Below are positions 8,324 to 58,905 of a stretch of DNA of 64,000 nucleotides, one piece after another (within the stretch, counting starts at the first letter, position 1; each line of letters opens with the position of its first letter). Source of the DNA: Zingiber officinale (lineage: Eukaryota > Streptophyta > Magnoliopsida > Zingiberales > Zingiberaceae); the NCBI RefSeq assembly GCF_018446385.1, contig NC_056001.1, positions 9,418,672-9,482,671 on the forward strand. The letters run 5' to 3'. A program made the position numbers and the translations under genes. A model generated the notes under the pieces. That model did not search any database and had not been told where the DNA came from. It saw nothing but the letters and a program-made list of their open reading frames with translations.

Positions 8324-9733
8324 TGTTGGATAGAAAGCGCTAGAGGGGGAGGGGGGGGGGGGTGAATAGCGCTCGTGGCTTTCACTTTTCATTTCGGAAA
8401 TCTTACGAATAACGCAGCGGAAATAAGTAAAATAACAAACACACCAAAGACTTCAAGATTTACTTGGTTCGGAGCCTGTGACGACTCCTACTCCAAGGCC
8501 TGCGATCATTGATCGCTTTCGGTGGGCAAAAACTATAAGTTCGTAAATCTTTACAAACAGGTGAGTACAGATTTAAGCTTGAAAGAAAAGTTATACCGAC
8601 AAACTACAAAAGATGAAAATAATTACTGATTGTCGGAGCAGCAGAGTGTAGTCGAAGGCTTCGGAGCAGCACACCAGATCACAAGTTCTTCTGTTCGAGT
8701 TGTCTTTTCGGCTGCTTCCGAGGCTCCTTTTTATAGCTTCTATGAAGATGATCCAGATCCTCAAGCTTCGGGATCAGGCTTGACCCGAGGCGGATCAGTC
8801 GACCGATCCCTGCGTTCGGTCGACCGATCAGATGGTCTTCTCCCATCTGATCCGCTCGCTCCGCTTCGATCTGGTCAAGTCTCATCCTCGGTTCAGTCGA
8901 TCGATCCCCTTGTTCGGTCGACCGATCCCCTTGTTCGGTCGACCGATCAGCTCCTTTGACCCGATCAACCTAGCCTGATCCAGTCGACACTGATCCTTGG
9001 TTTGGTCGACCGATCCCCAGGTCCGGTCGACCGATCCCCAGGTCCGGTCAACCGATCCCCTGGTCGAGCCCGGTCCAACCTCCAGAAATCTGATCTGCTA
9101 GCTTGGGGGTTCGGTCGACCAATCCCAATGTTCGGTCGACCGATCCCGATCAGTCCTAACCTTGCATAAAAATATTAGTTTCCGGCAAAACAGAGTTTAG
9201 AACACAAACGATAATATGTAGAAATAAATTTGACAGTCTCCAGACTGTCCGGGTCTGACTTCGGATTTCCAACCGGAAAACCCTAGGTCGACCCGACGCC
9301 TATTGTTCCCTCTACGGGGAACGCGTCCTCACCTACTCCACTCAGGAGATTTATCTGTTACTAGTGCGATCCTCCAGATCGACTGGACTTTTGCTCAGCG
9401 TTCGAAGCTTCCGGACTTTCTGCTGGACTTCCGCTTCCCGACTAGTCCAGTCTTTCACCTGGTCCGCGACACCAGGACTTTCCACTTAGGGTTACCCTCC
9501 CCCCTCCTAGGACTTTTGCCTGAAGCTCTCGACCCGCCAAGACTTTCCACATAGGGTTACCACCTCCTATGACCTAGATTTACCACCCCTTAGGGTTTTC
9601 CACTTGCCTAATCGCAGCTGGGACTTTCTTGAAACACTCAATTAAGTACGTTTGATCACGAAATAACTTAACTTTGAATTCTTTTGCCATTATCAAAACA
9701 ACGGTCGATCGTCGGATGCTGCCCGCACCAACA
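8324..9733 (-). mobile_element. 3' LTR of element A
   Basis: Plus-strand limits are TGTTGGATAG and CGCACCAACA, so the sense LTR runs TGTTGGTGCGGG to TATCCAACA. A TATA box (TATAAAAAGG on the minus strand, 8726-8735) separates U3 from R-U5. U3 carries a set of CGGTCGACCG palindromes (8795-9150) and pyrimidine-rich actttcc repeats. A G12 run at 8351-8362 is shorter in the 5' LTR. It aligns with the two halves of the 5' LTR. ORFs across the palindromes (serine/arginine/aspartate repeats) are by-products of the repeat. Confidence 0.85.
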
Positions 9734-18734: not shown

Positions 18735-19401
18735 TGTTGGATCAAAAGCGCTAGAGGGGGGGTGAATAGCGCTCGTGGCTTTCACTTTTCGTTTCAAAAA
18801 TCTTACGAATAACGCAGTGGAAATAAATAAAATAATAAACACACCAAAGACTCCAAGATTTACTTGGTTCGGAGTCTGTGACGACTCCTACTCCAAGGCC
18901 CGCGATCGTTGATCGCTTTCTGTGGGCAACAACTATAAGTTCGTAAATCTTTACAAACAGGTGAGTATAGATTTAAGCTTGAAAGAAAAGTTATACCGAC
19001 AAACTACAAAAGATGAAAATGATTGCCGATTGTCGGAGCAGCAGAGTGTAGTCGAAGGCTTCGGAGCAGCACACCAGATCACAAGTTCTTCTGTTCGAGT
19101 TGTTTTTTCGGCTGCTTCTGAGGCTCCTTTTTATAGCTTCTGTGAAGATGATCCAGATCCCCAGGCTTCGGGATCATGCTTGACTCGAGGCAGATCGGTC
19201 GACCGATCCCTGCATTCGGTCGACCGATCAGACGGTCTTCTCCCATCCGATCCGCTCGCTTCGCTTCGATCTGATCAAGTCTCATCCTCAGTTCGGTCGA
19301 CCGATCCCCTTGTTCGATCGATCGATCAGCTCCTTTGACCCGATCAATCTAGCCTGATCCAGTTGACGCTGATCCTTGGTTCGGTCGACCGATCCCCTGG
19401 T
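18735..19401 (-). mobile_element. 5' LTR of element A, inner part (LTR 3' end)
   Basis: It matches 8324 to about 9068 of the 3' LTR, including the TATA box (19126-19135) and the CGGTCGACCG boxes, which are fewer here (one unit of a local triplication is present where the 3' LTR has three). It stops at gatcccctggt, where the Gypsy LTR begins. The other part resumes at 27119. Confidence 0.85.
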
Positions 19402-21694
19402 TGTGACGACCCGCCTTCTACTAACTAGGCTGTAAGGCCGGACCGTCACAATATGCTGTGCTACACTATATCCATGACCATCACTAAGTCTAGGTGCGGA
19501 AAACTGTACCAAATTAAACCTTTGCTATACTAATACCATTTCTTTATTCTACATGTGCTAAGGGATGCAATCTAAGGTATACATGGCATATCCTGCATCC
19601 CCTATGGTCAAGGAGCTGAGTTACAGGGTTTCCTGGTCGAAACCCAGCTTCCCAATCGATTCAGACTCAACTCAATCGATTGCAAGCTGTTGGATCGATC
19701 CATGGATCGATTCAGATGGCTACTGTGCTCGGGTTAATATTCTAGATCGATCAGCTGATCGATCCAGACTGGCCAATCGATCCATTGATCGATTCCAGGG
19801 CTCTCTGTTCGTGGGAGCGATTTCCTCGATCGATCGAACGATCGATCCCCAACTCTCTGTTCGCGACAGAATGCGATTGGATCGATCGGCTGATCGATCC
19901 AGGACCTTACTGTTTGCGGAACCAGGCTCCCAATCGATCCACTGATCGATTGAGGGCCCCCAATCGATCCACTGATCGATTGGGGTTTTTGATTTCGTAT
20001 CAGAAGTCTGATTTTAGCACTGTTTCGTGCCAAACTCACCTACAAGCTTTCTACAATAGCTGGGAACATACTAATAACACATAACTAGGATTATGAGCAT
20101 AAGCACTAACAATCTAAACAAGTCTTTCATGATTCAAGGCATTAAAATAACTAGAAATGCGGAAATAACATTATGTAAAATCTAAAGTCTTAGTTTGCTA
20201 ATTTCTCCAAGATCTTCATTCCAGGTTCCTTCCACACACATCTTCATCGCATTGACCTCCAGCCTCCACTAGTTCATCTTTCCTTTACCTTTATCTACAG
20301 TATAAGGAAAAGAGTATCTGTAAGCTTGAGAGCTTAGTAAGAAACCATCTACCTCACAAAACATGCATACGATGCAATTTATGATTTGAAAACATGCTAT
20401 TTGAAAGATACGCTGAACAGATGAGAGCATGGCATGGTATCATACACATGGAAACCAAAAATTGATCATGGAACTATCACATGTATCAATGATGAACTAA
20501 GCTGAAGCATGAACTGAGCTAAAACTAAGACTAAGCTAGAACTGAGTTTAAACTGTATACACCACTGATTTGTGAGTTTTGAAAACTATTTATCATAGAT
20601 AGATGAAAATACATAATCATGCTGCTGATGGGACCGGCAACTGTACTTGCTATGCGCGCATCCCTAACTAGACCCGGGTTTGCAAGTCCCAAATTTAGTA
20701 GGGTTTACTAGGTTATCTAAACCTAGGGACGACTGTGGGAGCCCAACCTAATGGATATCTAATCCAGTACAGTGCCACTGCTAAAATAAAATACTAATTA
20801 TAGCTGAGTTCTTCTTATATTGCTATTTCCAGGTTATCTGAACCTATCTGAACCTATCTGAACCTAGAGCTAGGTTATCTGAACCTAGAGGCGATTGTGG
20901 GAGCCCACCCATTGGACCGTAGTCCTATAAAAACTGTAATAAAACTGGACATGCTATAAAAATGTTTCTATTACATTTACTGAGCTATTATAATGCCTAA
21001 GTTGCATTTTTAAATGAGCTGCACCTACTATCGAGCACTTGGTGTGCGCTATTGCTCACCCTATGTGCCCAAAAATCCATATACTACTAAACTAAAACAT
21101 GAAATCATACGAAAGCTACTTATACTGTAGGTGAGGGGTTTCTTACTTCCTGCGCTAGATTTCCTTACGATCTGATCGCTAGATTTCCGGTGGAGAAGAT
21201 CCCTTCAGCGATCTCCTTGCGTCTACGTGTTCCTCTTGTAGTGGAGAGCGTCCTCGTACCGGAGTTATCGTCGGAAGGTGCTCTTGGAACCCTTGGAATG
21301 GAACCCTAGTCTTCCTTGTGGTTGGCGCCGAGAGATGAGGGAGAAGGGAGGTTCGGCGGGATTAGGGTGAGGAGAAGAGGTAAGTCACGATAAAAATAAA
21401 ACTCCTCACTTAATTCCCTATTTATAATAAGGAATTAATTCACCCAACTTTAACTTAAATAAAATTGTTTCCCTTTCCTTTCAGCATGACCCTGCTGGGT
21501 TCTCCTGGTTACTAGAGTTCACCTTAAGTCATAGGACCCAATAGGTCTCGGGTTCAATCCCCGCATAGGTTATTCTACGATTCTATTTATTTTTGCTACT
21601 TCCGTTACTCTAAAAATTCCATAAAAATATCCTAAAATTCCAGAAAAATCATAGAATATTTCTAAAATAATTTTGAGAATTTCCGGGCATTACA
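19402..21694 (-). mobile_element. 3' LTR of Gypsy E
   Basis: Plus-strand limits are TGTGACGACCC and GGGCATTACA; sense is TGTAATGCCC to GGTCGTCACA. TATA box TATAAATAGGG on the minus strand at 21416-21426. Seven palindromic boxes built on GATCGATC lie at 19640-19990, downstream of the TATA box in sense direction, so they would be in the transcript. Near 21530-21575 is a tRNA-like B box (GGGTTCAATCCCC on the plus strand). The polypurine tract (minus strand GTATGGGGGAT) abuts at 21695-21705. Confidence 0.85.
19640..19990. repeat. Palindromic GATCGATC boxes in the Gypsy E LTR
   Basis: Units have two arms around a spacer of about 4 nt. For example CAATCGATC + CACT + GATCGATTG (twice, 19930-19985) and TGGATCGATC + GGCT + GATCGATCCA (near 19877-19900). 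The outer bases differ between units but stay complementary within a unit. The truncated right LTR carries the same set (26810-27120). Confidence 0.9.
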
Positions 21695-25620: not shown

Positions 25621-25624
25621 CGGC

Positions 25625-26534: not shown

Positions 26535-26546
26535 GCTCTGATACCA
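26535..26546 (-). other. Primer-binding site of Gypsy E
   Basis: The minus strand reads TGGTATCAGAGC three bases from the LTR end, complementary to the 3' end of initiator methionine tRNA. Confidence 0.85.
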
Positions 26547-26549
26547 CTC

Positions 26550-27120
26550 TGTAACGACCCGCCTTATACTAACTAGGCTGTAAGGCCGGACCGTCACAAT
26601 ATGCTATGCTACACTATATCCATAACCATCACTAAGTCTAGGTGTGGAAAACTGTACCAAATTAAACCTTTGCTATACTAATACCATTTCTTTATTCTAC
26701 ATGTGCTAAGGGATGCAATCTAAGGTATACATGGCATATTCTGCATCCCCTATGGTCAAGGAGCTGAGTTACAGGGTTTCCTGGTCGAAACCCAGCTTCC
26801 CAATCGATTCAGACTCAACTCAATCGATTGCAAGCTGTTGGATCGATCCATGGATCGATTCAGATGGCTACTGTGCTCGGGTTAATATTTTGGATCGATC
26901 GGCTGATCGATCCAGACTGACCAATCGATCCATTGATTGATTCCAGGGCTCTCTGTTCGCCGGAGCGATTTCCTCGATCGATCGAATGATCGATCCCCAA
27001 CTCTCTGTTCGCGACAGAATGCGACTGGATCGATCGACTGATCGATCCAGGACCTTACTATTCGCGGAACTAGGCTCCCAATCGATCCACTGATCGATTG
27101 AGGGCCCCCAATCGATCCAC
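26550..27120 (-). mobile_element. Truncated 5' LTR of Gypsy E
   Basis: It matches the first 571 bp of the left LTR with few changes (for example tgtgacg / tgtaacg), including the GATCGATC boxes. It ends in the middle of a box at caatcgatccactg, where element A LTR sequence resumes. About 1.7 kb of this LTR are missing, and so is the right-hand target duplication. Confidence 0.9.
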
Positions 27121-27759: not shown

Positions 27760-29409
27760 TGTTGGGATCTCTTCGTACGGCTAGAGAGGGGGGTGTGAAT
27801 AGCCGACCCCAAATCTTTGCTCGTTTCTTTCTACAAATTAGGTTAGCAGCGGAAATAACAAAAGGAAACGAAAATAAAACAAACCAAACCTCAACTCGTC
27901 GATGTAACGAGGTTCGGAGATGAAACTCCTACTCCTCGGCGTGTCCGTAAGGTGGACGAAGCCTATCAATCCGTCGGTGGATGAGTCCCCGGAAAACCGG
28001 CTAATACAATATACTCCTTGTGGGTGGAGAAACCTCGCCACAATATTCTTGCAACAGCAAGAAAGGAATACAACAAGAAATACAAGAAGACAAGAACAAT
28101 AAATGTAAAACACAGTTTTCTTGCCTCCTCGCCCATCGGATTCGTTGAAGCGGCTCCTCGAACACCTACAACAGGATATCCCGATGAGAAGCTCACGCTG
28201 AAGCTTGTGAAGAAGAGCTCAACAAAGCTCAAGCACCGCAATGGCGGCTCAGAGAAGAAGAGAAGAGGAAGAAGAAGTAGTGCACAACTCTCGACCCTTT
28301 ATACCGCCAAGAAGACAATGAAGAAACTAGCCGCGTCAGAACGCTAGAACCCCGATCGGGCACCGATCACCCTAAGCGCTGAAGCTTCGTTTGTCACCGA
28401 CGGTCCCGGACCGATCAGGTGTCGCGATCGAAGCCCCGATCGGTCGTGGACCGATCAGGAACCTCTGACGGTCCATAGACCGATCAGCTCGCCTCACGCC
28501 ATCGATCTATGCCCGATCGGTCCGCCGATCGATCAGTGGGTGGATCGGCCGCCAGACCGATCCACGGCTTTTCTCGCAGTTGCGTTGCCTCCCGATCGGT
28601 CTCCGGACATCGATCAGATTACAACCGCGAGCCATCGATTCGATTCTCGATCGGTCACCGCACCGATCGTGGCAACGAATATCACCGGATCGGTCACCAT
28701 CCGATCCAACTCCTAGGTTTAGAGTGCCCTCTCTACCTAGTTGGAGAACGAGCCACCGAGCCCTCTCCGACTCCATATGCCAAGCTTCACTCACTTGGAC
28801 TTCTCAACACCGGATGTCCGATCACCCTTGATCCATCTGGATTTTCCTTGCTTGCTTTACTCACCGGGACTTTCCACGCTTCACTCACCAGATTTCCACA
28901 CCGCCTAACATCCCAGCTAGGACTTTCCCACCGCCTCTTCACTCACCAGGGACTTTCCAACCGCCTAACATCCCAGTTAGGACTTTCCCACTGCCCGGCT
29001 TCACTCACGGGACTTTCCCGTGCCAAGTCTCCATACTTGACTTTTCCTGGCAAGTCTCCATACTTGGACTTTTCCAGGCCAAGTCTCCATACTTGGACTT
29101 TTCGTGCCAAGCTCCCTTGCTTGACTTTTCCGTGCCAAGTCTCCATACTTGGACTTTTCGAATCAAGTCAACAGGTCAACCTCGACCTATGGTTGCACCA
29201 ATAATCTCCCAAACATCTATTCTTGTCCCACATCAAGAATAGAACTCTCTCACGAGTGTCAAACATCAACATGCAACACAACTAGGTCAACCTTGACCTA
29301 AGGTTGCACCGACAATCTTCCCAAGTCAAACATCAAAATACAACTCGAGTCACGTCAACTCGAGTTGGTCGGGTCAACCAGTCAACCTTGACCTAAGGTT
29401 GCACCAACA
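27760..29409 (-). mobile_element. LTR B1 (outer 3' LTR)
   Basis: Plus-strand limits TGTTGGGATC and TGCACCAACA. TATA box TATAAAGGG on the minus strand at 28295-28303. It has the same parts as B2 and B3 but is about 50-65 bp shorter. The losses are at CTG/CAG and in homopolymers, so many palindromic boxes (28340-28700) look damaged. Confidence 0.9.
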
Positions 29410-31295
29410 ATCTCCCCTTTGATGTTTGACAAAACCATAATCAAGTTAGGTTAACCCGATAACCTAACTTAGGTTTTCAATCATCTTCCAATGTCCAATG
29501 TTCCTTCCTTGAACATTCTCCGGACATTCTCCCTTAGGTTAACCCGATAACCTAACTTGGGTTCTCCAATAATTCTCCCCTTTTGACACACATCAAAAGA
29601 ATTCCAATGTTCTTCCTTGAACATTCCTAGACATTCTTCCCTAGCTTAGGTTAACCCGATAACCTAACTTGGGTTCTCCAATAATTCTCCAATGAACACT
29701 CTCCCTTTTGACACACATCAAAAGAAAAGGAGGGTATCAAGGTCAAGATTTTCTTCCTAATGAAAGTCCCATACCTTCCATTGAAACTCTTAATTTCCTC
29801 CTTGATACTAAACTCAACAATCAACTTAGTGATAATCCCATATCACTAATCCTCAAAAGTCTTAAGGAGTAAAAACTCCCCCTAAAAGTCAACTCCCCCT
29901 TGACCATTGCACCAACAATGTCTTTGAGAGTTCCAAACCTTTAGAAATCCGAAAACACCACTTCCATAACTGAAATTTCAGACAACAGCTGAGAAATCAG
30001 AAATTCGGCACGCCCTGATCGGTCCCCAGACCGATCAGCCCTTCACCAGATCGCACTCGTGCTACTGGAACTCACTGGATCGGTCTGCAGACCGATCCAC
30101 AATACTCTGGATCGGTCCGCTGGATCGGTCCGCAGACCGATCAGATCTTCCTTGGATCGGTCCCCGGACCGATTCAGCTACTGAAATCAGAACTTCTGAT
30201 TTTCTCCCCGGGAGAAGTTCAGAAACTCACAGAAAATTACAGAAAATTCTAAAAATTACGAAACTTTGAGGATACATTCCTCATAACATACACTATCATG
30301 GAAAAATAGTTTTAGATGAAAATAACTTCCATTTTCAAATCTTGATACAAAGTTCGAAAAGTTTTGAAATAGCTCAAAGTTTCAAAAACTTTGTATCACT
30401 TTGTTCAATGATGAATGCAATCACTAAGATGGCTTCATCAAGGTTTTCCAAATCAATTTTAAAATGATTTTAAACCTTTTAATTTAGGACCATAATCTTA
30501 GGGCTAGATGTACATGACTTGTACACAAGCTTTCCCTATGATCCTTAATTTCTTGAATTAGGGTCATCTAGGTACAAGGACTATGCACCTTGATCCTAAC
30601 TCATGATCCTAATATCTCACACACATCTAAGGTGTATCAAACCACATTCAAGTCAATTTGATGTGAGACATGGATTAAGGTCAACTTAGGCTAAGTTCTC
30701 ATGCATTTTCTAAACTACACTTTGATCTCAATATCAAAATGTGTTTTTATCCTTAAATCAATTTCATTGATTATTAATGCAAGAGATGATGACATGGCAT
30801 AAAATGGTATCATAAATGAAAACATGTGCCAATGTCATGATGTCATGGCATAAAGTTTGAAACTTAAATAAACATGACATAAAAACTAGCCTAAGCATTA
30901 TCATGACATTTCAAATGATAATAAAATAAATATGATGTCATGGCATGGCATATGACAACCAATCATGGCAAGTTAGCACAAATAAAATACCTAAATTCCC
31001 TATCTAAGTATCCTTAGCCTTAGCTAACTTAAAATCTAACCCTAGACTGCCCATATATCCCTAAGAGAAAACCAAAATCCCAATTATGGTATTTCTCTAG
31101 GTTTTCTTAAATTGTGCCAAATAAGATTAAAATCGATATTTCCCAATTATGGCACAATTTACTCTTCAAGGAGTAAATGATAATTCCATTTCATTTTCAA
31201 AAGTTCTCAAAACCTTGAAAATGCTCCTTGAGTGTCAATTTCCTCAAAGTTGGGTTAACTACCCTTCTAATTGGAGTTGACACTCTCTAACCCAT
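29410..31295 (-). other. 3' non-coding part of B internal region 1
   Basis: Starts with a polypurine tract (plus strand atctccccttt). Holds three or four copies of a dyad AAGTTAGGTT...AACCTAACTT (29440-29680), GATCGGTC/GACCGATC boxes (30015-30180), and then plain AT-rich DNA. No gene. In other GAG-only elements this place is also non-coding. Confidence 0.75.
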
Positions 31296-32768: not shown

Positions 32769-32817
32769 TCTCTAGCTTTGCTCCCACGGGTGTTGATCAG
32801 ATGAAGAGCGAACCTTC

Positions 32818-32829
32818 GCTCTGATACCA
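32818..32829 (-). other. Primer-binding site, B unit 1
   Basis: The minus strand reads TGGTATCAGAGC two bases from LTR B2, the initiator methionine tRNA complement. Confidence 0.88.
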
Positions 32830-33382
32830 CTTGTTGGGATCTCTTCGTACGGCTAGAGAGGGGGGGTGTGAATAGCCGACCCCAAATCTTTGCTCGTTTC
32901 TTTCTACAAATTAGGTTAGCAGCGGAAATAACAAAAGGAAACGAAAACAAAACAAACCAAACCTCAACTCGTCGATGTAACGAGGTTCGGAGATGAAACT
33001 CCTACTCCTCGGCGTGTCCGTAAGGTGGACGAAGCCTATCAATCCGTCGGTGGATGAGTCCCCGGAAAACCGGCTAATACAATATACTCCTTGTGGGTGG
33101 AGAAACCTCGCCACAATATTCTTGCAACAGCAAGAAAGGAATACAACAAGAAATACAAGAAGACAAGAACAATAAATGTAAAAACACAGGTTTTCTTGCC
33201 TCCTCGCCGACTAGATTCGTTGAAGCAGCAGCTCCTCAGAACACCTACAACAGCAGGATATCCCAGTCGAGAAGCTCACGCGAAGCTTGTGAAAAAGAGC
33301 TCAACAAAGCTCAAGCACCAGAAACAGCAGCTCTGTAGAAGAAGAGAAGAGGAAGAAGAAGTAGTGCAGCTACAACTCTCGA

Positions 33383-33392
33383 CCCCTTTATA
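33383..33392 (-). promoter_or_regulatory. TATA box of LTR B2
   Basis: TATAAAGGGG on the minus strand, about 55 bp downstream (sense) of the last palindromic box. The same motif is at 38453-38462 in B3, and a related TATAAATCTAGG at 41810-41821 and 46773-46784 in C. The start of transcription is expected about 30 bp further on. Confidence 0.65.
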
Positions 33393-33445
33393 CCTGCGAA
33401 GAAGACAGCGAAGAAACTAGCCGTTGCGTCGCAATGGCTAGAACC

Positions 33446-33830
33446 CTGATCGGTCTGCAGACCGATCAGCCTAGGCGCGTGAAGCTTCTGTTTGTCACCT
33501 GATCGGTCCCCAGACCGATCAGGTGTCGCGATCGAATCCCTGATCGGTCTGTGGACCGATCAGGGAACCTCCTGATCGGTCCATAGACCGATCAGGCTTC
33601 GGCTCCTCACGCCACTGATCTATGCCTGATCGGTCTGCCGATCGATCAGGCCATGGGTGGATCGGTCAGCAGACCGATCCACGGCTTTCTTCTCGCAAGT
33701 TGCGTTGCCTCCTGATCGGTCTCCAGACCGATCAGATTATAATCAGTGAGCCACTGATCTGATTCTGATCGGTCACCAGACCGATCAGGGCAAACGCAAT
33801 ATCACTGGATCGGTCACCAGTCCGATCCAA
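33446..33830. repeat. Array of nine palindromic GATCGGTC/GACCGATC boxes in LTR B2
   Basis: Each box has arms of 9-12 bp around a 4-6-nt centre (TGCA, CCCA, TGTG, CATA, and others). Most boxes have outer arms CTGATC/GATCAG, others TGGATC/GATCCA; the outer bases change on both sides together. The arrays in B3 (38503-38885) and C2 (46855-47190) are of the same kind. Confidence 0.92.
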
Positions 33831-33899
33831 CTCCTAGGTTTAGAGTGCCCTCTCTAACCTAGTTCGGAGAACGAGCTACCGAGCCCTCTCCGACTCCAT

Positions 33900-34312
33900 A
33901 TGCCAAGCTTCACTCACTTGGACTTCTCAACACCAGATGTCCGATCACCCTTGATCCATCTGGATTTTCCCTTGCCCGGCTTTACTCACCAGGACTTTCC
34001 ACCTGGCTTCACTCACCAGGATTTCCACACTGCCTAACATCCCAGTTAGGACTTTCCCACTGCCTGGCTTCACTCACCAGGACTTTCCAACTGCCTAACA
34101 TCCCAGTTAGGACTTTCCCACTGCCTGGCTTCACTCACCAGGACTTTCCCCGTGCCAAGTCTCCATACTTGGACTTTTCCAGTGCCAAGTCTCCATACTT
34201 GGACTTTTCCAGTGCCAAGTCTCCATACTTGGACTTTTCGCGTGCCAAGCTCCCTGCTTGGACTTTTCCGTGCCAAGTCTCCATACTTGGACTTTTCCCG
34301 AATCAAGTCAAC
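33900..34312. repeat. Array of about 30-bp dyad units with co-varying arms in LTR B2
   Basis: Units are separated by a constant gactttcc. Arms seen: CCAAG/CTTGG, CCAGAT/ATCTGG, CCTGG/CCAGG, CCTAAC/GTTAGG, CCAAGT/ACTTGG, CCAAGC/GCTTGG. Centres are ctccat, atccca or cttcactca. About 12 units. They make up the start of U3 in sense direction. Confidence 0.9.
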
Positions 34313-34547
34313 CAGGTCAACCCTGACCTATGGTTGCACCAATAATCTCCCAAACATCTATTCTTGTCCCACATCAAGAATAGAACTCTCTCACGAGTGT
34401 CAAACATCAACATGCAACACAACTAGGTCAACCTTGACCTAAGGTTGCACCGACAATCTTCCCAAGTCAAACATCAAAATACAACTCGAGTCACGTCAAC
34501 TCGAGTCGGGTCAACCAGGTCAACCTTGACCTAAGGTTGCACCAACA

Positions 34548-36367
34548 ATCTCCCCCTTTTTGATGTTTGACAAAACCATAATCAAGTTAGGTTAACCCGA
34601 TAACCTAACTTAGGTTTTCAATCATCTTCCAATGTCCAATGTTCCTTCCTTGAACATTCTCTGGACATTCTCCCCTTAGGTTAACCCGATAACCTAACTT
34701 GGGTTCTCCAATAATTCTCCCCCTTTTTGACACACATCAAAAAGAATTCAAATTCTTCCTATGACATTCCCCTAGCTTAGGTTCACCCCATAGCCTAACT
34801 TGGGTTCTCCAATAATTCTCCAATGAACACTCTCCCCTTTTTGACACACATCAAAAAGAAAAAGGAGGGTATCAAGGTCAAGATTTTCTTCCTAATGAAA
34901 GTCCCATACCTTCCATTGAAACTCTTAATTTCCCCCTTGATACTAAACTCAACAATCAACTTAGTGATAATCCCATATCACTAATCCTCAAAAGTCTTAA
35001 GGAGTAAAACTCCCCTAAGTCAGCTCCCCTTGACAATTAGGTAAAAACTCCCCCTACAGGTCAACTCCCCCTTGACCATTGCACCAACAATGTCTTTGAG
35101 AGTTCCAAACCTTTAGAAATCCAAAACACCAACTTCCAACTGAAATTTCAGACAAAACAGTCGAAAATCAGAAGTTGGCACGCGCTGATCGGTCACCAGA
35201 CCGATCAGCCTTCACTGGATCGGTCACCAGACCGATCCACACTCTCCTGGATCGGTCCCCAGACCGATCCAGACTTCCTGGATCGGTCCTAGTAGAAAAC
35301 TCTAGAAAATTACAGAAAATTTCTAAAATTATAAAACTTTGAGGATACATTCCTCATAACATACACTATCATGGAAAAATAGTTTTAGATGAAAATAACT
35401 TCCATTTTCAAATCTTGATACAAAGTTCGAAAAGTTTTGAAATAGCTCAAAGTTTCAAAAACTTTGTATCACTTTGTTCAATGATGAATGCAATCACTAA
35501 GATGGCTTCATCAAGGTTTTCCAAATCAATTTTAAAATGATTTTAAACCTTTTAATTTAGGACCATAATCTTAGGGCTAGATGTACATGACTTGTACACA
35601 AGCTTTCCCTATGATCCTTAATTTCTTGAATTAGGGTCATCTAGGTACAAGGACTATGCACCTTGATCCTAACTCATGATCCTAATATCTCACACACATC
35701 TAAGGTGTATCAAACCACATTCAAGTCAATTTGATGTGAGACATGGATTAAGGTCAACTTAGGCTAAGTTCTCATGCATTTTCTAAACTACACTTTGATC
35801 TCAATATCAAAATGTGTTTTATCCTTAAATCAATTTCATTGATTATTAATGCAAGAGATGATGACATGGCATAAAATGGTATCATAAATGAAAACATGTG
35901 CCAATGTCATGATGTCATGGCATAAAGTTTGAAACTTAAATAAACATGACATAAAAACTAGCCTAAGCATTATCATGACATTTCAAATGATAATAAAATA
36001 AATATGATGTCATGGCATGGCATATGACAACCAATCATGGCAAGTTAGCACAAATAAAATACCTAAATTCCCTATCTAAGTATCCTTAGCCTTAGCTAAC
36101 TTAAAATCTAACCCTAGACTGCCCATATATCCCTAAGAGAAAACCAAAATCCCAATTATGGTATTTCTCTAGGTTTTCTTAAATTGTGCCAAATAAGATT
36201 AAAATCGATATTTCCCAATTATGGCACAATTTACTCTTCAAGGAGTAAATGATAATTCCATTTCATTTTCAAAAGTTCTCAAAACCTTGAAAATGCTCCT
36301 TGAGTGTCAATTTCCTCAAAGTTGGGTTAACTACCCTTCTAATTGGAGTTGACACTCTCTAACCCAT
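34548..36367 (-). other. 3' non-coding part of B internal region 2
   Basis: Same layout as 29410-31295: polypurine tract (plus strand atctccccctttttga), TTAGGTTAACCCGATAACC dyads (34583-34800), GATCGGTC boxes (35185-35290), then AT-rich DNA that is nearly identical to unit 1. No gene. Confidence 0.75.
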
Positions 36368-37840: not shown

Positions 37841-37889
37841 TCTCTAGCTTTGCTCCCACGGGTGTTGATCCGATGAAGAGCGAACCTTC

Positions 37890-37901
37890 GCTCTGATACC
37901 A
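37890..37901 (-). other. Primer-binding site, B unit 2
   Basis: The minus strand reads TGGTATCAGAGC two bases from LTR B3. Confidence 0.88.
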
Positions 37902-37903
37902 CT

Positions 37904-39600
37904 TGTTGGGATCTCTTCGTACGGCTAGAGAGGGGGGTGTGAATAGCCGACCCCAAATCTTTGCTCGTTTCTTTCTACAAATTAGGTTAGCAGCGGAAAT
38001 AACAAAAGGAAACGAAAACAAAACAAACCAAACCTCAACTCGTCGATGTAACGAGGTTCGGAGATGAAACTCCTACTCCTCGGCGTGTCCGTAAGGTGGA
38101 CGAAGCCTATCAATCCGTCGGTGGATGAGTCCCCGGAAAACCGGCTAATACAATATACTCCTTGTGGGTGGAGAAACCTCGCCACAATATTCTTGCAACA
38201 GCAAGAAAGGAATACAACAAGAAATACAAGAAGACAAGAACAATAAATGTAAAAACACAGGTTTTCTTGCCTCCTCGCCGACTGGATTCGTTGAAGCAGC
38301 AGCTCCTCAGAACACCTACAACAGCAGGATATCCCAGTCGAGAAGCTCACGCGAAGCTTGTGAAGAAGAGCTCAACAAAGCTCAAGCACCAGAACAGCAG
38401 CTCTGTAGAAGAAGAGAAGAGGAAGAAGAAGTAGTGCAGCTACAGCTCTCGACCCCTTTATACCTGCGAAGAAACTAGCCGTTGCGTCGCAACGGCTAGA
38501 ACCCTGATCGGTCTGCAGACCGATCAGCCTAGGCGCGTGAAGCTTCTGTTTGTCACCTGATCGGTCCCCAGACCGATCAGGTGTCGCGATCGAAGCCCTG
38601 ATCGGTCTGTGGACCGATCAGGGAACCTCCTGATCGGTCCATAGACCGATCAGGCTTCGGCTCCTCACGCCACTGATCTATGCCTGATCGGTCTGCCGAT
38701 CGATCAGGCCATGGGTGGATCGGTCAGCAGACCGATCCACGGCTTTCTTCTCGCGAGGTTGCGTTGCCTCCTGATCGGTCTCCAGACCGATCAGATTACA
38801 ATCAGTGAGCCACTGATCTGATTCTGATCGGTCACCAGACCGATCAGGGCAAACGCAGTATCACTGGATCGGTCACCAGACCGATCCAACTCCTCGGTTT
38901 AGAGTGCCCTCTCTAACCTAGTTCGGAGAACGAGCTACCGAGCCCTCTCCGACTCCATATGCCAAGCTTCACTCACTTGGACTTCTCAACACCAGATGTC
39001 CGATCACCCTTGATCCATCTGGATTTTCCTCGCCCGCTTTACTCACCAGGACTTTCACACGGCTTCACTCACCAGGATTTCCACACCGCCTAACATCCCA
39101 GTTAGGACTTTCCCACCGCCCGGCTTCACTCACGGGACTTTCCAACCGCCTAACATCCCACTTAGGACTTTCCCACCGCCCGGCTTCACTCACGGGACTT
39201 TCCCGTGCCAAGTCTCCATACTTGGACTTTTCCAGTGCCAAGTCTCCATACTTGGACTTTTCCAGTGCCAAGTCTCCATACTTGGACTTTTCGCGTGCCA
39301 AGCTCCCTGCTTGGACTTTTCCGTGCCAAGTCTCCATACTTGGACTTTTCCCGAATCAAGTCAACCAGGTCAACCCTGACCTATGGTTGCACCAATAATC
39401 TCCCAAACATCTATTCTTGTCCCACATCAAGAATAGAACTCTCTCACGAGTGTCAAACATCAACATGCAACACAACTAGGTCAACCTTGACCTAAGGTTG
39501 CACCGACAATCTTCCCAAGTCAAACATCAAAATACAACTCGAGTCACGTCAACTCGAGTCGGGTCAACCAGGTCAACCTTGACCTAAGGTTGCACCAACA
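37904..39600 (-). mobile_element. LTR B3 (outer 5' LTR)
   Basis: Nearly identical to B2 except in 39015-39200, where CTG/CAG sites appear as CCG/CGG or are lost. TATA box at 38453-38462. The right-hand ctctc target duplication follows at 39601. Confidence 0.92.
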
Positions 39601-41256: not shown

Positions 41257-43037
41257 TGTTAGGATCGATGATCGCGGCTAGAGAGGGGGGTGTGAATAGC
41301 CGACCCCAAATTCTCGTTTCTTCCTACGAATTAGGTTAGCGCATCGGAAATAAACACAAGAAACGAAAACAAGAAGATCAAACCTCAACGCGTCGATGTA
41401 ACGAGGTTCGGAGATGATACTCCTACTCCTCGGCGTGTCCGTAAGGTGGACGAAGTCTACCAATCCGTCGGTGGATGAGTCCCCGGAGAACCGGCTAATA
41501 ACTACTCCTTGTGGGTGGAGAAACCTCGCCACAATACTTGTAACAACAAGAAAGGAGTACAACAGATACAAGAAAGCAAAAGACAATATGAAACACTTGC
41601 TTGCCTTTCTTGTTGACTGGAGTGATGAAGCAGCAACCTCACACCAGCAGCAGCTGACGAGAATCCAGTCGAGAAGCTCATGCGAAGCTTCAGCAGCGAG
41701 GAGCTCAGCAAAGCTCTGATAGTAGGTAAGAGCAGAAGCTCTAGAGCACCAGAACAGAAGTTCTAAGAAAAAAAAGTAGCACGCAGCAGCAGCCCTTCAC
41801 CTAGATTTATACCTGCGAAGAACCTACAACGAAGACAGAAGATGCAGAACCTAACCGTTGTCACTCACAACGGCTAGATCCAGACCGATCAGGCTTCACC
41901 CGATCGGTGCGGCTTGCTCGACGGTCGGGGACCGATCAGGTGCCGATCGGTCCCAGCATCGATCGAGGCTTGCAGAGTTGCCCAACTCTCGTGGAATCTG
42001 ATCGGTCCCGGACCGATCCCACCGTGGTAGCGCCCCGATCGGTCCCGGGACCGATCAGCTCCATGCCGATCGGTCCCGCACCGATCGAAGCCCACGTAAC
42101 CATGATCGCCTTGTTTGTTATCCGATCGGTCACCGCACCGATCGGATACCAAGCTCTCGATCGGTCTGCAGACCGATCCAGAGCTTGGTTTTTGCCCAAA
42201 CCAAGTCCCAAACCTTCCAAACCAATATCCGGTCAACCTTGACCTATTGGTACATCATTCTTAGCATCCGGTCACTCCCTTGACCTGCTAAGATTCTCCA
42301 CCAAGTGTCCGATCAATCCCTTTGACCTACTTGGACTTTCCTCTTCGTGCCAAGTATCCGATCACTCCCTTGATCTACTTGGACTTCCCAACACCAGATG
42401 TCCGATCACCCTTGATCCATCTGGATTTTCCCTTGCCCGGCTTAACTCACCAGGACTTTCACCTAGCTTCACTCACTAGGGTTTTCACCTGGCTTCACTC
42501 ACCAGGATTTCCAATCTGCCTGGCTTCACTCACCAGGACTTCCAAACTGCCTGGCTTCACTCACCAGGACTTTCCCTTGCCTGGCTTTACTCACCAGGAC
42601 TTTCTCGAATGCCTGGCTTCACTCACCAGGACTTTCACCTTCACCTAGCTTCACTCACTAGGATTTTCACCTGGCTTCACTCACCAGGATTTCCCGACTG
42701 CCTGGCTTCACTCACCAGGACTTCTCCGACTGCCTGGCTTCACTCACCAGGACTTTTCCCCGTGCCAAACTCCCTGTTTGGACTTTCCCCGTGCCAAGTC
42801 TCCATACTTGGACTTTCCGCGTGCCAAGCTACCTGCTTGGACTTTTCCCGAATCAGGTCAACCAGGTCAACCTTGACCTAAGGTTGCACCTACAATCTCC
42901 CAAACACCTATCCTTGTCAGACATCAAGAATACAACTCTCTTCTCGTCAAACATCGTCAAACATTAAAACACAACTCGAGTCAGGTCAACTCAAGTCAGG
43001 TCAACCAGGTCAACCTTGACCTAAGGTTGCACTAACA
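41257..43037 (-). mobile_element. LTR C1 (3' LTR)
   Basis: Plus-strand limits TGTTAGGATC and GCACTAACA. TATA box (TATAAATCTAGG, minus) at 41810-41821. Palindromic boxes 41880-42180, dyad array 42184-42850. Against LTR C2 the box region has many small losses, mostly at CTG/CAG; the rest matches closely. Confidence 0.9.
42184..42850. repeat. Dyad array in LTR C1, including nested dyads
   Basis: It begins with CTTGGTTT/AAACCAAG (42184-42205). Next comes a two-tier dyad at 42221-42251: outer ACCAATA/TATTGGT, inner GGTCAA/TTGACC. Then CTTAGCA/TGCTAAG, CCAAGT/ACTTGG (twice), CCAGAT/ATCTGG, several CCTGG/CCAGG, CCTAG/CTAGG, CCAAAC/GTTTGG, and CCAAGC/GCTTGG. The arms differ between units but remain complementary. 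C2 has the same series at 47195-47860. Confidence 0.9.
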
Positions 43038-44737
43038 ATCTTCCCCTTTTTGATGTTTGACAAAATCCAAAATCAAGTTAGGTTAACTCGATAACCTAAC
43101 TTAGGTTTTCCAATGTTCTTCCTTGAACATTCTTCCAAAACCTACACTCTCCCCCTTGGGACATCTCTCCCCCTTTTTGACACACATCAAAAAGAGGGAA
43201 TCAAGGTCAAGAGTTTCTTCCTAATGAAAGTCCCATACCTTTCATTGAAACCCTTAATTTCCCCCTTAATACTAAACTCAACACTCAACTTAGTGACAAT
43301 CCCATATTACTAATCCTCAAAAATCTTAAGGAGTAAAAACTCCCCCTAAAAGTCAACTCCCCCTTGACAATTAGTTAAGACTCCCCCTAAAGGTCAACTC
43401 CCCCTTGACCATTGCACCAACAATGTCTTGGAGAGTTTCAAACCTTTAGAGACCCGAAACTCAACTCCCACAGCTGAAATTTCATACCACAGTCGAAATT
43501 CAGCAAATTCAGCGTGCCTGATCGGTCACCGGACCGATCAGGACCCCTCTGGATCGGTCCAGTGACCGATCCAAGTTCAGATCAGGCGGTTTTTGATTTC
43601 TTCTCTCCCGAAATTCAGAAACTCACAACAAATTCCAGAAAATTCGAAAAATTGTGAAATTTTGAGGATACATTCCTCATACCATATACTATCAAGGAAA
43701 AATAGTTTTCTATGAAAATAACTTTCATTTTCAAATCTTGATACAAAGTTCAAAAGTCTTTGAAATAGTTCAAAGTTAACTCATCTTTGTATCAATTTGC
43801 TCAATGATGAATGCTATCACTAGAAAAGCTTCATCAAGGTTTTTCAAACCAATTTCAAAATGATTTTAAACCTTTTAATTTAGGACCACAATCTTAGGGC
43901 TATATGTACATGACTTGTACATAAGCTTTCCCTATGATCCCCAATTTCGAATTAGGCTCATCTAGGTACAAGAACTATGCACCTTGATCCTAACTCATGA
44001 TCCTAATATCTCACACACATCTAAGGTGTATAAAACACATCCAAGTCAATTTTGATGTGAGATATGGGTTTAGGTTATCTTAGGCTAAGTTTTCATGCAT
44101 TTTCTAAAACAACAACTTGATCTCCATATCAAATTGTGTTGTTTATCCTTAGATCAATTTCATTGATTATAAATGCAAGAAATGATGGCATGGCATAAAA
44201 AGATATCATAAATGAAAACATGTGCCAATATCATGATGTCATGGCATAAAGTATGAAACTTAAATAAAGCATGACATATAGATAACCTAAGCATTATCAT
44301 GACATTTTAAATGATCATAAACTAATTATGATGTCATGACATGGCATATGGCAAACAATATATGACAAATAGCACATAAAGGTATAGAAAATACCTAATT
44401 CTAGCCTTAGTTGCCATTTTTAATAATTTTGATCATTTTTCCATAGGTTCTATATTCCTAAGTGTAATAGACCTAAAATCATATACTAAAGATTTTTAGA
44501 TCACCATGTGCCAATTAGATTGATCCTAGAAAACTCCTCAAATGAGATTGACACATCCTAATCACCTTAGGAATAATTCTTAATTTCATTTTCAAGGCTT
44601 GATTATACCTTGAAAAATCCTAAAGTGCCACATTTTGCCATGATTAGGTTAACTACCTATTCAAGTAAGGTTGACACACCCTAACTCATCTAGTGTGATG
44701 AAATCACGCTCCTAGGAACCCAATACCTATTGGAGGT
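43038..44737 (-). other. 3' non-coding part of the C internal region
   Basis: Begins with a polypurine tract (plus strand atcttcccctttttga). One TTAGGTTAACTCGATAACC dyad near 43076, GATCGGTC boxes (43518-43573), then AT-rich DNA related to the same part of B. Short ORFs here have no support. Confidence 0.7.
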
Positions 44738-46227: not shown

Positions 46228-46229
46228 CT

Positions 46230-48048
46230 TGTTAGGATCGATGATCGCGGCTAGAGAGGGGGGGTGTGAATAGCCGACCCCAAATTCTCGTTTCTTCCTA
46301 CGAATTAGGTTAGCGCAGCGGAAATAAACACAAGAAACGAAAACAAGAAGATCAAACCTCAACGCGTCGATGTAACGAGGTTCGGAAATGATACTCCTAC
46401 TCCTCGGCTTGTCCGTAAGGTGGACGAAGCCTACCAATCCGTCGGTGGATGAGTCCCCGGAGAAGCGGCTAATAACTACTCCTTGTGGGTGGAGAAACCT
46501 CGCCACAATACTTGTAACAACAAGAAAGGAGTACAACAGATACAAGAAAGCAAAAGACAATATGAAACACTTGCTTGCCTTTCTTGTTGACTGGAGTGAT
46601 GAAGCAGCAACCTCACACCAGCAGCAGCTGACGAGAATCCAGTCGAGAAGCTCACGCGAAGCTTCAGCAGCGAGGAGCTCAGCAAAGCTCTGATAGCAGG
46701 TAAGAGCAGAAGCTCTAGAGCACCAGAACAGAAGTTCTAAGAAAAAAAGCAGCACGCAGCAGCAGCCCTTCACCTAGATTTATACCTGCGAAGAACCTGC
46801 AACGAAGACAGAAGACGCAGAACCTAGCCGTTGTCACTCACAACGGCTAGATCCAGACCGATCAGGCTTCACCCTGATCGGTCTGGGGCTTGCCTGATCG
46901 GTCGTGGGGACCGATCAGGCCCTGTGCTGATCGGTCCCCAGACCGATCAGAAGGCTTCACAGAGAGTTGCCCAACTCTCTGTGTGGAATCTGATCGGTCC
47001 CTGGACCGATCCCACCTCAGGTGGTAGCGTCCCTGATCGGTCCCGGGGACCGATCAGGCTCCATGCTGATCGGTCCCCAGACCGATCAGTAAGCCCACAG
47101 AACCATGATCGCCTTCTGTTTGTTATCTGATCGGTCACCAGACCGATCAGATACACAAACGTATCACTGGATCGGTCTGCAGACCGATCCAGAGCTTGGT
47201 TTTTGCCCAAACCAAGTCCCAAACCTTCCAAACCAATATCCGGTCAACCTTGACCTATTGGTACATCATTCTTAGCATCCGGTCACTCCCTTGACCTGCT
47301 AAGATTCCCCACCAAGTGTCCGATCAATCCCTTTGACCCACTTGGACTTTCCTCTTCGTGCCAAGTATCCGATCACTCCCTTGATCTACTTGGACTTTCC
47401 AACACCAGATGTCCGATCACCCTTGATCCATCTGGATTTTCCCTTGCCCGGCTTAACTCACCAGGACTTTCACCTAGCTTCACTCACTAGGGTTTTCACC
47501 TGGCTTCACTCACCAGGATTTCCAATCTGCCTGGTTTCACTCACCAGGACTTCCAAACTGCCTGGTTTCACTCACCAGGACTTTCCCTTGCCTGTCTTCA
47601 CTCACCAGGACTTTCTCGAATGTCTGGCTTCACTCACCAGGACTTTCACCTTCACCTAGCTTCACTCACTAGGATTTTCACCTGGCTTCACTCACCAGGA
47701 TTTCCCGACTGCCTGGTTTCACTCACCAGGACTTCTCCGACTGCCTGACTTCACTCACCAGAACTTTTCCCCGTGCCAAACTCCCTGTTTGGACTTTCCC
47801 CGTGCCAAGTCTCCATACTTGGACTTTCCGCGTGCCAAGCTACCTGCTTGGACTTTTCCCGAATCAGGTCAACCAGGTCAACCTTGACCTAAGGTTGCAC
47901 TTACAATCTCCCAAACACCTATCCTTGTCAAACATCAAGAATACAACTCTCTTCTCGTCAAACATCGTCAAACATCAAAACACAACTCGAGTCAGGTCAA
48001 CTCGAGTCAGGTCAACCAGGTCAACCTTGACCTAAGGTTGCACCAACA
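46230..48048 (-). mobile_element. LTR C2 (5' LTR)
   Basis: Plus-strand limits TGTTAGGATC and TGCACCAACA. TATA box 46773-46784, complete palindromic boxes 46855-47190, dyad array 47195-47860. The leader block (about 46370-46500) is shared with B and with solo LTR 1076-2060. The 226-codon minus-strand ORF 46093-46773 crosses the LTR and primer-binding site and is not a gene. Confidence 0.9.
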
Positions 48049-49389: not shown

Positions 49390-50225
49390 TGTAGGACCTG
49401 TGCGACCGACAAGAGGTGAGTGAATTGCTTGTAAAATAGAAATAACCCCTTTCTCATTCTTTCTACGTAGTTAGATAACACAATTAAAATAAACAAAAAT
49501 GAGCAACTAAAGAAAGAAAGTAAGAATGTTGATTTACTTGGTTACAACCTAGGTGGTTATTAATCCAAAGCGTTGAAAAGCTCTACTAGAAATACTTCTT
49601 CGTTGAAGGCGGAGTAGCCTCTTACAGAGGTTAACAACTCAAGAAAAAGACTAGAAAAGATGATAATAGGTGTTGTTCAAGTTGTTTTTTAATATCTAGA
49701 TCCAGGGGCCTTTTTATAGCTCCTAGAAAATATTATCCGAAGCTTGAAGGAGCCTTCAAGGTGGTCCAGGACGCATTTAACAAAACAAGTTTTATCACTG
49801 AAGATGAAACTTTATTTTCAGCTAAAGGTTATCTGAAGGCGCCTTTAATAGACTGGAAGACGCCTTTGATTCTATTCATGCGAGACACCTTCCAAGACAT
49901 TGAAGGTGCCTTCCATGAGGTAGGTCAGCCTTTTTGCTGTTCTTCTTCGCGTGGGTGATGCTCTGGTTATCCGAAATTGAGCTCACTCAAATCTAACTCT
50001 GAGCTTCTCTTCGAGTAGGCTTCCTTTCCGGCTTCTCGTCCCTCGAACGCCATGCATGCCCTTCTCATCCACCGGTGTACTCTTGCACAACACCTCATCC
50101 CTCGGATGCACCGAGTCTTTCAACTCATTTCCAGTGTCATCCTTCTTGCTAGCCGTGTCTTTCACTCGGCTTCTTGTGCTCCTAAGTTCCTGCACACTTA
50201 GACACAAGACATCAAACATAAACAT
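49390..50225 (-). mobile_element. LTR remnant with GAAGG-NN-CCTTC boxes
   Basis: Starts tgtaggacctgtgcg and agaggtgagtgaattgc, the decayed form of the CCAACA-type LTR end. TATA box TATAAAAAGG on the minus strand at 49709-49718. Upstream of it (49745-49915) are palindromes CTTGAAGG-ag-CCTTCAAG and GAAGG-tg-CCTTC and a GGCGCC. The outer end is not defined. The minus-strand ORF 49983-50225 has no recognisable domain. Confidence 0.5.
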
Positions 50226-50694: not shown

Positions 50695-51756
50695 TGTTGG
50701 TGCGGTTAACACTAACGATCTAACTCAGGTTTTGATGAATGACAAAATAGGTTAAGTTAGTTTCATTATTATCTAACAGTTTGACCGAGTGTGCAGGAGA
50801 AGCCCAGACATGTCGACGGGTTGACCTGATGTATGGCACGAAGCCCAGCTAGGTCGACGGGTCGACCGGATAGCTGGCACGAAGTCCAAACGGGTCGATG
50901 GGTTGACCAGACGTTTGACACGAAGTCCAGCTAGGTCGACGGGCTGACCGAATAGCCGGCACGAAGCCTAGATGGGTCGAAGGGTTGACCAGATGTTTGA
51001 CAGGTAAGTGAAGGTAAGCCACTGGAGGGGAGTGACTGTAAGGACGCGTTCCCGGGAAGGGAACATTAGGCGTCGATCCGACTTAGATCTATTTCGGATA
51101 TCTAAGTCGAGATCGTGACTAGGTATCGAGGAGACAGAATCTAATTAATATTTTATTTGATGATAAACTGTGCTAACACTCTATTTTGCAGGATATATAT
51201 TTGCCTCGGACTAACGTTTTCTTGTAGGAAGGAAACTGCTGGAAAATAAGGGTCCGAGCGTCCGGAAGGGATTTGGGCGCCCGAAGGTGAATTTTATCCC
51301 CAACGTCACTTTGCCACGTGGAGATCCCTGGTTGGCTCGGCTTCGTCATATTCAGGGTGCCCGAAGGGATCCAGGCGCCCCAAACCTCTTATATAAGGAG
51401 GGTGAAGGCTGAAACAAAGGAACAACACAACAACTCACGATCTACTTTCCTATGCTCCTGCGACGCTGCGAAGGCTCTCCGACAAAGTGCTAATTTGATT
51501 GTTCTTTTTCTTATTGTCGATTGTTTTTCTTAGTAATTCCTATACTTCTTTTGTAATCAATATTTCGAATTATTAGTGATTGGCTAACGGAAGCACTCAA
51601 CGAGTGCGGACCTTGGAGTATGAGTCGACACAGGCTCCGAACCAAGTAAAAACTACTTGTGTCATTTTTTTCTGTTTTCGATTTTTTCGCTGCGTACTTT
51701 CGTTAAAATTTTAATCGATATTCATCCCCCCTCTCTATCGAATTCACGATCCAACA
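50695..51756 (+). mobile_element. Solo LTR with perfect GTATG target duplication
   Basis: It runs TGTTGGTGCGG to CGATCCAACA and is flanked on both sides by gtatg (50690-50694 and 51757-51761). TATA box TTATATAAGG at 51389-51398. U3 carries four or five units of about 60 bp with nested dyads (50800-51005). The U5 has the GGCTCCGAACCAAGTAAA stretch that is also found in element A. No internal region. It marks an element lost by LTR-LTR recombination. Confidence 0.9.
50800..51005. repeat. Nested dyad units in the solo LTR
   Basis: The clearest unit, 50845-50877, has outer arms CCAGCTA/TAGCTGG and inner arms GGTCGAC/GTCGACC. Neighbours have CAAACG/CGTTTG or changed CAGCTA outer arms around a similar inner core. 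A constant gcacgaag links the units. Confidence 0.85.
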
Positions 51757-58009: not shown

Positions 58010-58905
58010 ACTTTGGATTGCCTTTTGATGGTTGGAAATGTAGCAACATTTCTCTTTCAAACCCTCAAGAACTGGCATAAATAAGTGTTCTTCAAATCTT
58101 TATGAAAATCCCTTTTCTAGGGTTACTTTAACACCTCTTAATCGATTGGCTTACCCCCAATGATTATCACGTCAGTTTAATCGTTCAAAATTTATAGAAC
58201 GACTCTTTTTCATCCATCTAATCAATTAGTGAGCTATATCAATCGATTCGGTAGCTTTTAATCAATTACCTAATTGATTCAGATGCTTTTTATTCTCGTG
58301 CAACTTTCTACCAATCGATTGGCCAAATTCCCAATCGATTCAGCACCCCTCTGTTTGCTAGAAGGCTACTTCCAATTGATTGGCCTAGCCTTAATCGATT
58401 TCCCCAATCGATTTCAGGCTTTCTGTTCATGAGAGAAACACAGCTTAATCGATTGCCCTAATCGATTATCATGAGCCAATCGATTACTCAATTGATTCCT
58501 CACCCATTTATACTCTCGCGAAGAACTCCTAAACGATTACTTGGGCCTAATCGTTTGTCCAACCCTTAACTCTACCCGAGTTTAGTGTTCATTTGCCCAA
58601 CCCTAGCGTCATCTGTGACTCGTTGGGACTTTTCATTGTCTAGCATCTAGTCAACCTTGACCTACGAGAGCTTCTTCACCAAGTTTCTGGTCAACCCTTG
58701 ATACACTTGGACTTTCCATCTCGTACCAACTTTTGGTTGAACTTTCGATCACCAACTGTCCGGTCAACTTTTAATCCACTTAGATTTTTTCCTTGCATAG
58801 CCCCGCTAGAACTTCCATTGCTTAGTTTCCAACTAGGTCTTCACTGGCTAGCCCTACTAGAACTTCCATTGCATAGTTCGCAACTAGGTCTCTGAAGCTC
58901 TATTT
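58010..58905 (-). mobile_element. LTR fragment with CAATCGATTG boxes, within the LINE remnant
   Basis: 58140-58510 has about 12 copies of CAATCGATTG or one-base variants, sometimes in pairs around a short spacer. 58600-58880 has dyads like CCAAGT...ACTTGG and CTAG units joined by gacttt/acttcc, the same series that starts U3 in B and C on the minus strand. A TATA box-like tttatactctcgcg is near 58506. The LTR ends are not found. It separates the two halves of an RTE LINE. Confidence 0.6.

Follow-up and report, generated by a model that had tools for sequence, protein, structure and literature searches.

Palindromic box arrays in LTR retrotransposons of a ginger locus resemble the repeated motifs described in Sireviruses

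The window analyzed here, i.e., the whole 64,000-nucleotide stretch of Zingiber officinale DNA, holds several LTR retrotransposons, the majority of them on the minus strand, and their box arrays and accompanying features are collected in Table 1. Family B forms a tandem LTR-internal-LTR-internal-LTR arrangement (27760–39612), in which 30223–34559 and 35297–39612 are 98.7% identical and which likely arose by unequal recombination. The internal regions of families B (29409–32831) and C (43020–46228) are short, at ~3.2–3.4 kb, and their ORFs of at least 120 aa, two of which were scanned against Pfam, include a zinc-knuckle gag, with no evident pol among the listed ORFs of that size; B and C are therefore probably non-autonomous, and their copies with boxes in the linker (internal region) are apparently short elements with gag alone. 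C1 and C2 have the appearance of the LTR pair of one insertion, and a target-site duplication, GAAAT, was seen by eye around them. Element A contains a 1.8-kb tandem array (14201–16037) whose unit is ~28–29 bp as judged by self-match offsets. A Gypsy element, E (19402–27122), lies within the palindrome-bearing part of an element A LTR. The junction lacks ~220 bp of the interrupted LTR (corresponding to 9023–9243 of the other copy), and inspection by eye revealed no clear duplication of a target site around E; that LTR retrotransposons often target palindromes is stated in the title of PMC6911290.

Table 1 Positions of box arrays and associated features within the 64,000-nucleotide window.
Feature	Position	Strand	Remarks
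LTR D boxes CCAGTCGACTGG	1541..1647	+	upstream of TATTTAA at 1683
LTR A3 array, core TCGGTCGACCGA	8795..9150	-	half-site as in B, spacer 0
LTR A5 (other A copy), boxes TCGGTCGACCGA	19193..19392	-	
Gypsy E LTR array, GATCGATC-N4-GATCGATC boxes	19660..19985	-	~1.4–1.75 kb downstream of TATAAATA (~21426)
Gypsy E array, second copy	26810..27109	-	
LTR B1 array	28348..28713	-	CAG/CTG-biased changes
Linker cluster, four B-type boxes (one with a mismatch)	30017..30174	-	lone half-site at 30110; upstream of clustered polypurine tracts
LTR B2	32832..34547	-	low end adjoins AGTGG/TATCAGAGC, high end adjoins AGGGGGAG-AT
LTR B2 TATAAA	33387..33392	-	~54 bp downstream of the array
LTR B2 box array, nine GATCGGTC-N4-GACCGATC	33446..33830	-	element runs on the minus strand
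Four AGGGGGAG polypurine tracts beside LTR B2	34550, 34717, 35048, 35065 (34550..35072, 523 bp)	-	
Linker cluster, three B-type boxes	35187..35269	-	lone half-site next, at 35281
LTR B3 array, nine boxes	38503..38894	-	every spacer 4 nt
LTR C1 array	41880..42185	-	CAG/CTG-biased changes largely confined to the array
Linker cluster of element C, two boxes	43520..43571	-	
LTR C2 array, seven B-type boxes	46855..47195	-	also other-sequence palindromes (e.g., 46958–46983)
LTR F1 boxes GAAGG-NN-CCTTC	49745..49915	-	minus-strand TATAAA at 49713
LTR F2 array, ~41-bp units with GGTCGACGGGTCGACC	50800..51005	+	TATATA at 51390, well downstream
LTR G array of AATCGATT	58140..58510	-	downstream of minus-strand TATAAA at 58507

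The first-pass annotation of this DNA had described nine boxes in LTR B2, ending about 55 bp before the TATA box, and both points are borne out, with TATAAA at 33387–33392 and the first box starting at 33446. Both half-sites, GATCGGTC and GACCGATC, are exact in seven of the nine boxes and the remaining two carry one mismatch each in the right half, while the spacer is 4 nt throughout. Counting palindromes with arms of at least 5 bases, the array has 10, where shuffles average 3.3 and never exceed 8 (0/300 shuffles reach 10), and its 198 paired bases compare with a shuffle mean of 35 (0/300 shuffles have as many). Its predicted RNA folding is likewise extreme (z −17.0), none of 100 shuffles being equally stable. 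Checked for a CpG island, a trait expected of the Sirevirus boxes discussed below, the array has a CpG observed/expected ratio of 1.00, with 0.94 and 0.45 in its flanks. The array of LTR C2 (46855–47195) has 11 such palindromes (maximum 7 in 300 shuffles), a predicted folding at z −14.4 (0/100 shuffles equally stable) and CpG observed/expected of 0.73, with 0.89 and 0.44 in the flanks. Within it, at 46958–46983, lies a perfect palindrome with 12-bp arms whose sequence is unrelated to the boxes. A second cluster of boxes is found in the linker of both B and C, upstream of the cluster of polypurine tracts (PPTs), and all nine linker boxes have a spacer of 4 in a scan that allowed spacers of 3–5 only. 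Among all exact half-site pairs in the window with spacers of 0–29 (n = 38), 30 are separated by 4 nt.

Comparison of the boxes with one another indicates which of their parts stay constant. Across the boxes of B3 and C2, which were called with spacers of 0–8 allowed, the 8-nt arms are 97–100% identical in pairwise comparison (chance being ~25%), whereas the spacers are 45% and 38% identical, respectively, and the flanks, 5–12 bases from the boxes, 24–33%. Spacer length is 4 in 9/9 B3 boxes and in 5/7 C2 boxes. It had been proposed that the dyad is kept and not the exact sequence, and these figures give that proposal no support in B and C; what is kept beyond symmetry is the sequence of the half-sites, near identical in contrast to that of spacers and flanks, together with their spacing. 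The related claim that both arms change together stands for the two outer base pairs and is weak further out. In 25 boxes (nine from B3, seven from C2, and nine from the linkers) the outer two pairs read CT...AG in 15 and TG...CA in eight, i.e., 23/25 are matched, and the two mixed cases are one CT...CC and one TG...AG (Fisher p = 7e-5, an optimistic value as the boxes are related and not independent). Co-change past the two outer pairs is not claimed: a first value of p = 0.006 for pairs 3–4 became 0.05 once box type was removed and the linker boxes were added, and the corresponding value for pairs 3–6 is 0.17. The spacers have no self-complementarity of their own, with 9/28 pairs where permutation gives 8.8 on average.

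Conserved half-sites and spacing, combined with free spacers and flanks, favor a protein-binding site. The boxes could instead be kept primarily for hairpins in RNA or single-stranded DNA, serving as a small-RNA source or in packaging or dimerization, with protein binding secondary. Several observations fit such a role, namely the very stable predicted folding of the B2 and C2 arrays and, at z −7.2, of the Gypsy E array, the palindromes of other sequence in the C2 array (including the one with 12-bp arms), and the small-RNA hotspots of maize Sireviruses, as far as these are covered in the available text of PMC10760457 and PMC5311732. Hairpins permit compensatory change, yet the arms in B and C are 97–100% identical, and they permit loops of variable length, yet the spacer is 4 in 9/9 B3, 5/7 C2, and 9/9 linker boxes (spacers of 3–5 scanned in the last). 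We consider a primarily hairpin-based role to be rather unlikely on this account. The dimeric DNA-binding factor and the hairpin formation named in the first-pass annotation both remain reasonable suggestions.

A third suggestion made there, a repair-based process that makes palindromes, was assessed through the changes between LTR copies. A3/A5, E3/E5, and B2/B3 yielded 19 changes at paired positions, in a scoring that excluded three pairs with gaps and takes in some incidental palindromes, and in which B2 and B3, tandem-array neighbors, are not proven to be an LTR pair and no target-site duplication proves the pairing of A3 with A5 or of E3 with E5. All 19 were one-sided in a first scoring; two of them turned out to be a single change, symmetric, in one of the short A boxes (19314 vs 8935), which leaves 17 one-sided changes and one symmetric change. 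The symmetric case looks like the same C-to-T transition on both strands at a CCG site. A chromosomal process, driven by repair or methylation, that alters the two arms jointly could account for this box, the change being consistent with deamination of CCG on two strands, but the other 17 of the 19 scored changes are one-sided, so that repair-based palindrome making is unsupported and a process of this kind is highly improbable. One-sided changes fit decay after insertion, and the symmetry would thus have been set while the element lineage was active.

The remaining families carry arrays of variable strength. By plain count A3 is weak, its five palindromes being reached by 43/300 shuffles (18/300 for paired bases), and the 12-mer TCGGTCGACCGA occurs there at four exact sites and at eight sites when up to one mismatch is allowed. 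The palindromes of D, F1, and G are modestly enriched over shuffles: three in D (reached by 3/300 shuffles; paired bases 0/300), five in F1 (1/300; paired bases 2/300), and six in G (4/300; paired bases 0/300). F2 is an array of ~41-bp units with five sites at up to two mismatches, and its single palindrome, reached by 172/300 shuffles, is no significant excess. The units of F2, together with parts of A (~21-bp units, by eye), resemble plain tandem repeats, as would be expected if a founder palindrome had been copied by slippage or unequal exchange and then passively inherited without present function. Passive copies should diverge evenly, yet in B and C the flanks are near chance identity and the arms near identical, and we regard mere repeat expansion as improbable.

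The first-pass annotation had also assigned the same arrangement, upstream of and near the TATA box, to the other Copia LTRs. Five of the seven non-Gypsy families considered (A, B, C, D, and F1) conform to it, and F2 and G do not. In F2 the box center precedes TATATA by as much as 529 bp. The G array follows a TATAAA resembling the C promoter, and 5/5 scored palindromes are downstream of this TATAAA; one palindrome of looser form, gapped by 8 nt and beyond the limits of the scan, was seen by eye on the upstream side at 58527–58552. A weaker TATA-like sequence was also noticed by eye ~60 bp past the array, near 58076, and G would have the usual order if this were its promoter. The sequence around the arrays links most of these families to one another. 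Downstream of the promoter D shares homology with B and C (74–76%), yet its boxes are CCAGTCGACTGG; homology between G and C2 covers 101 columns upstream (75%) and 40 in the core promoter (78%), yet the boxes of G are AATCGATT. F2 shares homology with A (77% over 102), and F1 matches A weakly (best E 0.21). Judged by these alignments, D, F2, and G are partial LTRs akin to those of B, C, or A and carry arrays of like kind, and F1 is probably a related LTR too, to the extent that its weak matches indicate. The arrays change faster than the LTR sequence that surrounds them, as is reported for maize.

The first-pass annotation knew of no described system that does this across LTR families, a statement refuted by Bousios et al. 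2010 (PMC2829016). In the available portions of that survey, Sirevirus LTRs carry a high-copy palindromic repeated motif (RM) with a CGG-CCG core shortly upstream of a conserved TATA, and an RM consensus is given per element, with one core each: CGGTCGACCG (Vitis), CGGTCTGACCG (Osr10), CGGTCAGACCG (Osr8), and ACAATCGATTGT (Tnd-1), the last being the published exception to the CGG-CCG core (PMC2829016). The boxes of our window are alike in their high copy number, their dyad symmetry, a core that varies by element, and a linker cluster, as well as, in A, B, and C, in the CGG-CCG core and, in A, B, C, D, and F1, in clustering shortly upstream of TATA; CGGTCGACCG and ACAATCGATTGT correspond to the cores of A and G, respectively. 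They differ in that D, F1, and G are without the CGG-CCG core, the cores of D and F1 being absent from the 2010 table, in that the boxes of G are placed downstream of TATA, and in that the B and C copies with linker boxes appear gag-only, whereas linker boxes in the survey, as far as its available text goes, belong to envelope-containing elements only (PMC2829016). A further parallel comes from maize Sireviruses, whose palindrome-rich LTR region is described as a highly variable small-RNA hotspot (Bousios et al. 2016, as relayed in the available text of PMC10760457 and PMC5311732). There, as here, a hairpin-capable palindrome cluster occupies the regulatory region of the LTR, and the variability recalls C vs G and B vs D; the maize core, CACCGGACNNNGTCCGGTG, is different.

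Other features of the elements bear on this affiliation. Sireviruses are marked by a 5′ LTR (PBS) junction that reads CA/ATTGG or AGTGG/TATCAGAGC; the AGTGG form is exact in B2, B3, and C2, and A has CA/ATTGG/TATCAGAG followed by T in place of the last C, which we accepted as such a junction. The terminal PPT, AGGGGGAG-AT-TG, is exact at B2 alone within family B and was accepted for the family, with B3 having AG for AT and B1 being one G short; A3 has AGGGGGAC-AT and C1 has AGGGGAAG-AT, and an exact AGGGGGAG tract stands beside an A-type LTR end at 27553. PPT copies cluster near the 3′ LTR in both B (four) and C (six exact copies near C1, at 43149–43405). When A, B, and C were checked for a C-rich signal, G runs were seen by eye on the plus strand near the low LTR ends. 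Element A encodes a Copia reverse transcriptase (RVT_2, E = 7.1e-72). Taking at least eight CGG-CCG palindromes as the mark of an RM, we counted nine in B2, nine in B3, seven in C2 plus two in its linker, and eight in A3 (with up to one mismatch). The arrays of A, B, and C are almost certainly the RM boxes by which the regulatory part of Sirevirus (Ty1/copia) LTRs is recognized. The palindrome boxes of this window are mostly a fresh example of the kind described in 2010, to which they add new core sequences as well as numbers for the conservation of half-sites and spacing as opposed to the freedom of spacer and flanks.

The best overall explanation, to which we give a probability of roughly 0.6, is that these Sirevirus RM boxes are inverted half-sites for a dimeric host factor that activates the LTR promoter. 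It draws on the array, its position, the conserved half-sites, their near-fixed spacing, the Sirevirus junctions, and the predicted folding, all of which are observed here. Each box would be a pair of inverted half-sites of the TCGGTC/GACCGA type, with a spacing set by the family, to which a putative dimeric host transcription factor would bind, and the array would act as a putative upstream activating region of the LTR promoter, supplemented by the second cluster in the linker. For this putative mechanism taken by itself, with factor binding at the half-sites and a boost to the LTR promoter from the array, we judge the odds to be about even. Several observations count against the overall explanation: a single rigid dimer would not allow a spacing of 0 in A vs 4–5 in B and C; the B and C copies, apparently gag-only, carry linker boxes of a sort published only with envelope; the CGG-CCG core is absent from D, F1, and G; the terminal PPT is exact solely at B2; and the A3 array is weak by plain count, as is the match of F1 to A. 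The array is also present in the 3′ LTR part of the element RNA. By analogy with maize Sireviruses, this RNA copy may fold into long hairpins and so feed small-RNA silencing.

Boxes of closely related design occur in the Gypsy element. We read its LTR as spanning 19402 to ~21698, and the nine palindromes with arms of at least 5 at 19660–19985 are a clear enrichment (maximum 7 in 300 shuffles). That the Gypsy boxes lie downstream of TATA, as previously noted, is confirmed, with 13/13 scored palindromes at 558–1791 bp downstream. The E boxes equal the B boxes in core arm length and spacer, with one symmetric base per arm differing, and exact E half-site pairs have a spacer of 4 in 6/6 cases (three per LTR copy; spacers of 0–29 allowed); boxes other than GATCGATC-N4-GATCGATC vary more. 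The element itself was left out of Sirevirus because its RVT_1, RVP_2, and RNase H domains are of the Gypsy kind and not accompanied by a Copia-type reverse transcriptase, and Pfam found no chromodomain in it at E 0.01. With one Gypsy family at hand, the likeness between E and B boxes may be convergence, exchange, or coincidence. It is doubtful, in our estimate, that a dyad of two GATCG(A/G)TC half-sites with a 4-nt spacer is truly common to a Ty1/copia Sirevirus (B, C) and the unrelated Ty3/gypsy E, in which case the dyad would stand upstream of the promoter in B and C and inside the transcribed LTR in E. Were it so, sites for a single host factor or RNA-structure pathway would have arisen convergently in unrelated retrotransposons or passed between them, and a match beyond coincidence would point to a host factor common to unrelated element classes. 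A palindrome common to two element classes, maize Copia and Helitron, is described in the available text of PMC10760457 and recalls the B-type geometry in E, the sequence and the element class being different. Titles and abstract openings retrieved by literature queries, which lacked the B core, report no boxes in Gypsy LTRs.

The arrays of B1 and C1 depart from their counterparts in a biased manner. In the C1 array 21/28 of the CAG/CTG triplets of C2 are altered, compared with 99/293 other triplets and 3/18 CCG/CGG triplets, and outside the array CAG/CTG is altered in 4/25 and 1/32. In the B1 array the figures are 25/30 for CAG/CTG, 114/337 for other triplets, and 2/20 for CCG/CGG, and outside the array 13/16 and 15/21 CAG/CTG triplets are altered, i.e., the whole LTR is affected. 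CAG/CTG triplets within the array fall from 30 to 9 in B1 and from 28 to 10 in C1. The comparison pairs B2/B3, E5/E3, and A3/A5 are free of the pattern, with 0/30, 1/22, and 8/25 CAG/CTG triplets altered. The pattern is a bias rather than an exclusive rule, other triplets being altered too. Gaps are also unequal (23 to 4 in C1 vs C2 and 53 to 6 in B1 vs B2), the small deletions being mostly one-sided. B1 and C1 were considered as evolutionary variants, and this was rejected on the CAG/CTG bias and the one-sided gaps. Provided that C1 and C2 started out identical when inserted, the differences between them would point to consensus errors and not to evolution, and the pattern in B1 and C1 is probably a sequencing consensus artefact. 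As to its cause, our guess would be that the Nanopore consensus errs at methylated CHG sites or within inverted repeats, the latter being the subject of PMC7229812, judging from the available part of that paper. In assemblies, CAG/CTG-biased changes in palindrome arrays can mimic rapid evolution.
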